Shown one piece after another: positions 26,822 through 29,503 of a stretch of DNA of 64,000 nucleotides. The DNA lies in the NCBI RefSeq assembly GCF_032999765.1, contig NZ_CP136051.1, forward strand, positions 4,854,501-4,918,500, in the 5' to 3' direction. This stretch comes from Imperialibacter roseus (GTDB taxonomy: Bacteria > Bacteroidota > Bacteroidia > Cytophagales > Cyclobacteriaceae). Position numbers and translations under genes: made by a program. Below the pieces are notes generated by a model. The model had not been told where the DNA came from and searched no databases. It worked only from the letters and a program-made list of their open reading frames with translations. Position 1 is the stretch's first letter. Each line of letters opens with the position of its first letter.

Positions 26822-26867
26822 GCCCCTATCATAGCCCATGGTTTAAACCATGGGCTATGATAGGGGC
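26822..26867. repeat. 46-bp perfect palindrome (REP-like), downstream of transposase 1
   Basis: A perfect inverted repeat: the left half GCCCCTATCATAGCCC + ATGGTTT is the exact reverse complement of the right half, and the centre is GTTTAAAC. The last codons and TAG stop of the adjacent Y1 transposase lie inside it. A sister palindrome of the same length and design sits on the other side of the gene at 27311-27356. Confidence 0.95.
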
Positions 26868-27298
26868 ACTCCACCTAACTTATGTAATTGGTTCAGGCCG
26901 TCAAGTTCCACTTGAAATGATCTCGTCTTATGATGTCTCTTTTGATTCTTTATATATTGAAAAACTGTTTCCATAACGGATTCACTCACTGAATACACCG
27001 CATAACCAGTTTGCCACGAAAATCTGTCCTTAATTAATTGTTGTTCATTGATCCAATGGGAGGAACTCCCCTTCACTTGCTTTATGACCTCTGCAATACT
27101 GGTCTGAGCATTTAACAAAAACAAACAATGAACATGATCCTCCATTCCGTTGATGATTCTCACAGCGCAACCCATTTCTGTAAATTGGCCCGTCATAAAA
27201 TCATATATCTTCCGTTCAACCGACTGATGAATCAAGGGCTGCCGTTCTTTGGTAGCCCAAATAGCGTGAATCCAAATACGATGATATGAATGAGGCAT
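26855..27298 (-). CDS. REP-associated Y1 transposase (RAYT/IS200-like TnpA)
   Basis: 147 aa. The HUH motif is H55-V-H57 (MEDHVHCLFLL) and the nucleophile is Tyr115 (QYIKNQKRHH). These are the marks of single-strand DNA transposases of the IS200/IS605 and RAYT type. No tnpB is present. It is framed by two 46-bp palindromes and its TAG stop (26855-26857) lies within the first one. RAYTs are usually single-copy and act on REP palindromes around the genome, which is the best reading here. Confidence 0.88.
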   Translation of the reverse strand: MPHSYHRIWIHAIWATKERQPLIHQSVERKIYDFMTGQFTEMGCAVRIINGMEDHVHCLFLLNAQTSIAEVIKQVKGSSSHWINEQQLIKDRFSWQTGYAVYSVSESVMETVFQYIKNQKRHHKTRSFQVELDGLNQLHKLGGVPLS

Positions 27299-27310
27299 GG
27301 CTGATTCGTT

Positions 27311-27356
27311 GGCCCTGCCATAGCCCCGGGTTTAAACCCGGGGCTATGGCAGGGCC
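27311..27356. repeat. 46-bp perfect palindrome (REP-like), upstream of transposase 1
   Basis: Half-site GGCCCTGCCATAGCCC + CGGGTTT and its exact reverse complement, with centre GTTTAAAC. Compared with 26822-26867 it differs at five positions per arm, and every change is matched on the other arm so that pairing is kept. It lies 12 bases upstream of the transposase ATG. Confidence 0.95.
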
Positions 27357-27508
27357 CCTACATTTCCAATATAAAAATCCTCAAGAACGAATGCAAAACG
27401 TGCCTAATCAGATCGAGCCATGTCAATTTTTTTTAAACCCGATGACATAGGGTTGACACTCCCGCTCCCTACATTTAAATTCAAAAGATCAAATCACCGG
27501 AGGGAATA

Positions 27509-28553: not shown

Positions 28554-29048
28554 ATGAAACAAAAAGAGCGGTCGGATTTAAAAAACGTCACCCGGTATGG
28601 TGCCGTTCAGCGAAAATATCAGCATGTTCAGCTGAACAAATGGCGAGCCAGCCGCAACGATGTAAAAGTCGGAATTGAGCAACTTCTGAGCTATGGAGGT
28701 ATAGGAAGGTTGCAGTTGCAAGGCTCATTTCTTGGCGAGGTTCCCGGTTTAACAAACCTGCCCGTGGCCAGAGTGGCAGAGCTGCTTGACATGAGCAAAA
28801 CTACTTTCTACAGGGCCAAAGATGAGCCGGAACTTGACATGGGCACGGTGGATCGACTTTCAAGCTTGTTCAAGATTTACCAGAGAGGAATGGAAGCCTT
28901 TGAAGGGCTGGAGCCGTTTGAAGAGTGGCTTCAATCAAAGATTGTCAACCTGGGGGACCAGCGTCCGATTGACCTTTTGATGACCGAGAGTGGTAGAACA
29001 GCTGTTTTGGAAGCTATTGACCGGGTAGAGTATGGAGTGTATGGCTAA
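28554..29048 (+). CDS. Antitoxin of Xre/MbcA/ParS type (DUF2384)
   Basis: 164 aa. The N-terminal half has basic/helical character. A helix-turn-helix (LPVARVAELLDMSKTTFYRAK) is followed by the DUF2384 part (LSSLFKIYQRGMEAFEGLEPFEEWLQSKIVNLGDQRPIDLLMTESGRTAVLEAIDRVEYGVYG). It is paired with a RES-domain toxin whose ATG overlaps the TAA by one base. These antitoxins cap the toxin active site with their C-terminus and repress their own promoter. Confidence 0.87.
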   Translation: MKQKERSDLKNVTRYGAVQRKYQHVQLNKWRASRNDVKVGIEQLLSYGGIGRLQLQGSFLGEVPGLTNLPVARVAELLDMSKTTFYRAKDEPELDMGTVDRLSSLFKIYQRGMEAFEGLEPFEEWLQSKIVNLGDQRPIDLLMTESGRTAVLEAIDRVEYGVYG

Positions 29049-29503
29049 TGCTGGTTTTTAGAATAGAAAAGAAGAAATACCAGTCTACTTACCCTCCTCT
29101 TGGTTCTCGTTTTGCAAACGGACGCTGGAGCACTAAAGATATGTGGGTGGTGGATACCTCAGAAAACATCGCCCTTGCTAAATTGGAGACACTGGCTAAC
29201 AGCGGGTCGAGAATACCTCAGAACAGGTACGTACTGACGCTTGAAATAGACGATGACACTCCACTGGCAGAAATAGCCATTAACGACCTGCCTCAAAACT
29301 GGCACGATTACCCCTACCCAAAACAACTAGCGGAGATAGTGAAAGATATAATGGATAGCCGACTGTATGTTGGGGTGGTTGTTCCATCGATCCAATCACC
29401 CAGGGAGAAAAATATCCTATTATTTCCCGAACATCCGGAGTTCGGGAGGTATGTGTCCAAATTGGATGAAACAGACGAATACTTTGATCCACGATTGAAA
29501 TAG
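29048..29503 (+). CDS. RES-domain toxin (NAD-degrading family)
   Basis: 151 aa. The RES domain takes its name from conserved Arg, Glu and Ser. Here candidates are R in FRIEKKKYQS and in NGRWST, E in ALAKLETLA, and S in VVPSIQSPREKN. Characterised relatives (for example MbcT and Res) deplete cellular NAD+. The gene overlaps the antitoxin by one base. Its last ten codons and stop region (29471-29502) are repeated exactly at 31113-31144, beyond the neighbouring transposase segment. Confidence 0.87.
   Translation: MLVFRIEKKKYQSTYPPLGSRFANGRWSTKDMWVVDTSENIALAKLETLANSGSRIPQNRYVLTLEIDDDTPLAEIAINDLPQNWHDYPYPKQLAEIVKDIMDSRLYVGVVVPSIQSPREKNILLFPEHPEFGRYVSKLDETDEYFDPRLK

Follow-up and report, generated by a model that had tools for sequence, protein, structure and literature searches.

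A small transposase gene framed by two long, perfect palindromes lies in the window (the whole stretch of 64,000 nt analysed here), and the locus is probably a REPtron-like unit, consisting of a class 1 Y1/HUH transposase (TnpA) and two copies of its own putative recognition hairpin, here called P, while secondary palindromes (S), interpreted as accessory parts, are absent. The case bears on how REP-like palindromes arise and spread and on whether their makers are domesticated. In a class 1 group that has been listed as REP-free, palindromes occur across much of one clade, and their architecture of three palindromes with near-fixed spacing and fixed order is stricter. A repeat-spreading system of a kind so far overlooked is thus suggested, whose small enzyme and defined, symmetric substrate would allow direct tests of recognition, strand choice and the origin of perfect palindromes.

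The transposase and its two flanking palindromes

The two palindromes, P1 (26822–26867) and P2 (27311–27356; both without an assigned strand), are each 46 bp long, with 23-nt arms (GCCCCTATCATAGCCCATGGTTT and GGCCCTGCCATAGCCCCGGGTTT), a spacer of 0 and 100% complementarity. P1 lies at the 3′ end of tnpA (26855–27298, minus strand) and covers its last codons and its stop codon TAG (26855–26857, minus strand), which falls inside the ATAGCCC element of the palindrome, while P2 is found 12 bp upstream of the start. The ATAGCCC element and the centre GTTTAAAC are common to both, and the arms of P1 and P2 are mismatched at positions 2, 7, 8, 17 and 18, counted from the outer end, each change being compensated on the opposite arm. 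The palindromes, their common elements and matched differences, and the transposase gene between them had been described in an initial annotation of the sequence, which did not mention the stop codon within P1, and were confirmed at the same positions. With arms of 23 nt P1 and P2 are the longest perfect palindromes in the window, and they were not made by chance, because the next arm in the window is only 7 nt long and the longest perfect arms in 100 windows simulated with a first-order Markov model measured 6–11 nt. Folding as single-stranded DNA yields energies of −25.5 (P1) and −30.1 kcal/mol (P2), with z-scores of −9.81 and −9.53, respectively. An assembly artefact as their source was also considered; it is unlikely, since the genome is assembled in one contig and a related palindrome is present at the same place in a sister species. 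No Rfam family reached its gathering score at the locus (15 matches, all below) or at eight relatives (28 matches, all below).

On the coding strand, a GTAG ends 1 nt before P2 and a GTGG 3 nt before P1 (window 27357–27363 and 26868–26874, respectively), and the GTAG is retained at the single P of the sister species. RAYT substrates have such a motif at this side as well. Within 8 nt of the other P palindromes described below, GT[AG]G was found in 0 of 86 cases on the coding strand and in one of 88 on the other strand (background 2.7%), and near the core of one of 58 modules. The motif is no general trait of the P group; beside the window palindromes it may be due to chance or act as a local guide.

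The 147-aa product of tnpA matches the Pfam family Y1_Tnp with an E-value of 1.6e-27. Its HUH motif (H55-V56-H57, codons at 27128–27136, minus strand) and the presumed catalytic tyrosine Y115 (codon at 26954–26956, minus strand) correspond to the catalytic residues of IS200/IS605 enzymes, and H55, H57, Y115, Q119, K120 and H123 are invariant in an alignment of 19 rows. Judged by its sequence, the protein is an IS200-like (class 1) enzyme and not a RAYT, the identity suggested initially: it reached 72.2 with the NCBIfam model NF033573 (IS200/IS605; cut-off 55), but only 30.6 bits with NF047646 (RAYT; curated cut-off 80), and it carries Y115-IKNQK-HH in place of the class 2 signature. This signature at the catalytic tyrosine is given as Y---NP, and that of subclass 1.2 as Y---Q--HH, in the classification of Quentin et al. 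(2018; PMC6006769). The further marks of subclass 1.2 were found as well, namely DHVH (for DH[IV]H), WQ, a motif of the YIKNQKEHH type, a length of about 148 aa and a low, divergent copy number in the own genome. The predicted structure (mean pLDDT 85.5) was matched best by the TnpA proteins of ISDra2 and IS608, with the RAYT structure 4er8 at rank 30. Four TnpA-like matches exist in the own genome; the other three are 34–39% identical to TnpA, one of them is broken, and the 39%-identical gene (L002) is without P. No near-identical second copy of tnpA was found in this genome, so that the gene is single-copy, unlike IS200/IS605 elements with several near-identical copies per genome. Adjacent genes for an Xre/MbcA/ParS-type antitoxin and a RES-domain toxin are located about 1.2 kb from the tnpA locus (28554–29503).

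P itself is no repeat family in the window's own genome (6.75 Mb), where a search with up to three mismatches returned only two places, the P1/P2 pair, without a third close copy; a looser pattern added one further palindrome with the GTTTAAAC centre, and a decayed copy is located near G000:C1:6622750 (G000 being the own genome). The search for further copies with paired changes, suggested in the initial annotation, gave hardly any here, but was positive in relatives. The absence of a repeat family in the own genome weighs against the REPtron-like reading. Another GTTTAAAC palindrome, AGCGATGGGTTTAAACCCATCGCT, is identical in three genomes of two genera (G000:C1:4559747–4559770, L120; G001:C44, L119; G098:C12, L071).

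P in relatives and the three-palindrome module

At an E-value of 0.001, TnpA had matches in 121 of the 196 genomes searched within the family, and at 1e-15 in 163 of 395 genomes of the phylum. We examined 143 tnpA loci, including the best 80 loci of a species collection, the titles of which are mostly Bacteroidota, with a few Balneolia, Ignavibacterium, Cloacimonadota, Deferribacteres and Neomarinimicrobiota. Palindromes with at least 11 net pairs and an A+T-type centre within 450 bp of tnpA were taken as candidates for P. This rule yielded 94 candidates in 57 loci, from which four of a Flavobacterium kind and two long S copies were taken out, leaving 88 P's in 52 of the 143 loci, found on one or both sides of the gene and with widely differing arms (e.g., CATAGCCCACGG, CCATAGCCAGCGG, CATCGCCCATGG, CCTAGGTGCGG and CCAGCCATGGG). 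In the two genomes G171 (C1:281283, 282199 and 283115, 916-bp spacing) and G145 (C17:12942 and 13820, 878-bp spacing) Y1 transposase genes with equal scores stand in tandem.

Other palindromes were also encountered. Loci L043, L044, L047, L048, L172, L174, L179 and L180 of a Flavobacterium branch have a TAAATTAGCATAAA-like palindrome near the gene start instead, while L041, L163 and L173 contain a AAGTTCTTCTC..GAGAAGAACTT palindrome within the gene. The palindromes of L142 and L021 have very long arms (31 and 37 nt) built of repeated CATCGCC- or CTCCATAG-like units and look as if they had grown stepwise.

A tree was made of 133 proteins, ten incomplete ones of the 143 having been dropped; it rests on few columns and its bootstrap had not settled. 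In it the window TnpA falls within a supported clade of 90 (97/96). Under labels that disregard palindromes of the AATTAG type in the Flavobacterium branch, P and S occur together at 29 loci of this clade and P alone at 15, the window locus among them, while nine have S only and 37 neither; 28 of these 37 form one branch, mostly named Flavobacterium and in some cases equipped with another palindrome. When this branch is set aside, 62 loci remain, among which only nine have neither, and these nine and the nine with S only count against the REPtron-like reading. Among the 43 rows outside the clade, one was scored as having both (L050, really S only), three P, seven S and 32 neither. The comparison of P sequences was restricted to 77 P's of 50 loci (one of them, L050, being really an S copy), after dropping those of odd length, those with arms below 14 nt and those lying beyond 300 bp. 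Copies of the same locus differed at 1.34 of 14 positions on average and those of different loci at 3.71 (p 0.0005), and P distance tracked protein distance with a Mantel r of 0.66 (n = 45), or 0.61 (n = 34) in a thinned set, from which near-identical proteins and, in one subclade, five rows had been removed, a coupling that co-inheritance alone could produce. Of the initial suggestion that the palindrome is recognised by a RAYT, it is the going together of P and transposase in one protein clade that stands, with an enzyme of a different class.

Copies of the P core were detected in 14 of 15 chosen genomes, with 0 hits for the reversed control in 14 of 15. Relatives contain up to 18 copies per genome; those away from tnpA amount to 16 of 18 in G015, 7 of 9 in G117 and 3 of 5 in G123. 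P is also present in G057 and G082, for which no close tnpA was found in the homology searches of family and phylum genomes, and G170 has seven exact modules and a sole Y1 match of 36% identity, findings that complicate the REPtron-like reading. An exact-pattern survey of the phylum, positive in 4 of 395 genomes, says little, as arm sequences differ from one lineage to another. Open frames of at least 80 aa cover P in 5 of 34 solo-module loci, compared to 16% of control positions, a figure uninformative on an extragenic position because the flanks are short.

The S palindromes were counted within 120 bp of 80 P's across 138 loci (five short or broken loci were dropped), and they cluster 38–47 bp from P, with 63 of 95 in the 40- and 45-bp bins. 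The module thus described has the plan S_L – 43 bp – P – 43 bp – S_R, about 100 bp in total, of which P is often the centre in relatives. P copies away from the gene in one genus illustrate it: AATGGTTAAAACCATT (S_L), about 43 bp from centre to centre, P, again about 43 bp, and AACCGTTTTAACGGTT (S_R). The order is fixed on the coding strand, S_L being on the left in 30 cases versus 1 and S_R on the right in 31 versus 1; modules flanking one gene therefore point in the same way. At least one S accompanies 42 of the 94 P candidates (19 have both) and 52 are without S, which also speaks against the REPtron-like reading.

The least circular test was a search for S_L plus S_R without P, which gave 40 matches in 8 of 390 family genomes, six of the eight being already known from earlier analysis, and 0 for the reversed control. 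P was found between S_L and S_R in all 28 distinct stretches (30 loci retrieved), compared to 2 of 600 control stretches. Among 60 modules found by S alone in fetched loci, all 14 central pairs of P are formed in 47 and at least 11 in 56, with complementarity at background from about the nineteenth pair outward; these figures are biased upward, because 36 of 61 modules are known solely through loci that had been retrieved for containing P or a module. In the open-access articles consulted, no record of S_L-P-S_R modules or of REPs of subclass 1.2 was found.

At the window locus, no S remnants above chance were detected beside P1 or P2 (best match 10/16, p 0.08); the locus has P without S, presumably by loss. 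Both palindromes are closer to the gene than usual (centres at −35 for P2 and +10 for P1, compared to medians of −75, n = 37, and +44, n = 31), so that the gene-side positions of S_R and S_L fall inside tnpA here.

Orthologous places, paired changes and competing explanations

In the sister species (G001) the same flanking genes enclose one P and no tnpA. This solo P is an imperfect mixture, in which the inner left arm is of the type seen in P2, the right arm of that seen in P1, and the outer arms come close to P1. The state is explained by exchange between palindromes together with a gain or loss of tnpA, and the direction of change we can only infer. At +43 bp, the side where S_R would be expected, 11/16 positions match S_R (background 1.8%), which is only suggestive. 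A comparable case is found in the genus of G117, where at the same place G170 has a module without gene, G117 the gene between two P's, and G593 a module with an adjacent, intact tnpA frame of 144 aa, followed by the contig end. A neighbouring module has been shortened by 40 bp in G593 compared with G170 and is broken at the centre of P (L265, 4929–4937; L264, 2058–2099), as though cutting had taken place at the hairpin tip. Comparisons made to find a clean empty site did not yield one: L117 against the window's own genome proved an old shared copy, and L113 and L110, compared within their genera, led to no place with both flanks and to a length difference of 1.3 kb. Movement of P is therefore something we infer.

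Solo copies are also expected if the locus is an ordinary insertion sequence of the IS200/IS605 type, with P1 and P2 as its end hairpins and solo P's as decayed or internally deleted copies. The enzyme exceeds the NCBIfam cut-off for IS200, its fold is nearest to the TnpA of ISDra2 and IS608, a solo P is left where the gene is missing, and the modules have the same direction on both sides of the gene, as IS200-type ends would. Such ends are not inverted repeats. This explanation is nevertheless unlikely: the genome contains a single copy and no near-identical one, the dispersed units are S_L-P-S_R with P central and not two joined ends, and in G015, G117 and G170 modules outnumber close tnpA genes. 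Moreover, subclass 1.2 has been described as not sharing the properties of insertion sequences (PMC6006769).

The 770 pair-sites compared in 55 of 61 modules (six were dropped as too far from the common core or with fewer than 10 pairs) contained 17 complementary double changes, 13 one-arm changes and one unpaired double change, where independent change of the arms at the per-arm rate predicts fewer than one double change; the 17 are not an event count, because some are inherited, and the high share of modules retrieved as copies (36 of the 61) biases pairing upward. Across 22 modules of one genus the P arms are 97% identical and the neighbouring spacer 51%, and the arms found in three species at one orthologous place, AACATAGCCCACGGTTT, TATCATAGCCCACGGCTT and ATAACAAAGCCCACGGTTT, each belong to a perfect palindrome. 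Pairing is thus kept while letters change, as proposed initially, but the conclusion drawn from it, that the hairpin is under selection, goes further than paired changes allow, because hairpin-templated correction of one arm gives the same pattern. Selection or templated correction, or the two together, may maintain the perfection of P. A mainly mutational process, in which the sequence of one arm is rewritten from the other through template switching or hairpin-primed repair, would need neither hairpin selection nor a function of TnpA. It would fit complementary doubles at least as frequent as one-arm changes, arms whose sequence outside the 14-nt core is frequently particular to the locus and still complementary, and long perfect arms without spacer. 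It leaves unexplained, however, why S palindromes stand about 43 bp from P in a fixed order and why they concentrate in one protein clade, and imperfect P's persist (the G001 solo and L122); as the main cause it is quite improbable. Least probable are transcription terminators or attenuators insulating the transposase gene and its neighbours, which would accord with strong hairpins, with P1 spanning the stop and P2 preceding the start of tnpA and with one solo copy between convergent open frames (L117), but not with the lack of a T run directly after P1 or P2 on either strand, with the position of the sister solo between the starts of divergent open frames, or with a three-part module of fixed order that is linked to one protein clade.

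Proposed mechanism and comparison with known systems

If the locus is a REPtron-like unit, P would fold into one long hairpin whenever the DNA is single-stranded, e.g., on the lagging-strand template, and both strands would form the identical hairpin because P is perfectly symmetric. A TnpA dimer would bind this hairpin, and His55/His57 and Tyr115 would cut and rejoin the DNA beside it. P would spread to new places, in relatives often within S_L-P-S_R, with tnpA sometimes carried along, and recombination between the copies at the two sides could delete the gene so that a solo P stays behind, as in the sister species. It is conceivable, though doubtful, that these loci constitute a separate class of palindrome-spreading system, in which a class 1 (IS200-like) HUH enzyme would act on an S_L-P-S_R unit with a near-fixed spacing of about 43 bp (about four helical turns), the symmetric P would be usable on either strand, and hairpin-templated copying during the reaction would keep the arms identical, so that P drifts yet stays perfect.

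With the TIRtron/TIRYT systems, described by Di Nocera et al. (2013; PMC3733652), the locus shares a Y1 gene framed by repeats that may be self-complementary and belong to dispersed families. However, the TIRYT examples belong to subclasses 2.1, 2.2 and 2.5 (PMC6006769), many TIRYT repeats have a GGGGWSAS motif, and no three-palindrome unit was found in the available text of that description (PMC3733652). The IS200/IS605 elements IS608 and ISDra2 resemble it in fold, catalytic residues and hairpins adjoining the gene, but differ in that the own genome is without near-identical further copies, that P is perfect and symmetric, and that a palindrome module is dispersed alone. Shared with subclass 1.2 are DH[IV]H, WQ, YIKNQK-HH, a length of about 148 aa, a low copy number and Bacteroidetes among the hosts (PMC6006769). 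In the table of that paper this subclass carries a "no" under REP, and it is described as "generally without" IS200 end structures, whereas many of the members examined here have palindromes.

REPtrons (TnpA_REP/RAYT with REP/REPIN) share with the locus a palindrome-framed Y1/HUH gene, dispersed palindromes without the gene, and the co-variation of protein and palindrome (PMC2817692; PMC8266576). They differ in several respects: the window TnpA belongs by its signature to class 1, with Y---Q--HH and not Y---NP, a GT[AG]G foot is no trait of the P group, P is longer and has no spacer, the modules have one direction at both sides of the gene where REPs are inverted, and P is part of an S_L-P-S_R triplet. 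The published biochemistry consulted here concerns class 2 enzymes of Proteobacteria. TnpA_REP of E. coli requires a bulge in its REP and loses its activity on perfect stems, while enzymes of group 3 cut short perfect stems (PMC8266576). As a spacer-less hairpin of at least 14 pairs with two-fold symmetry, P is unlike the substrates of both.
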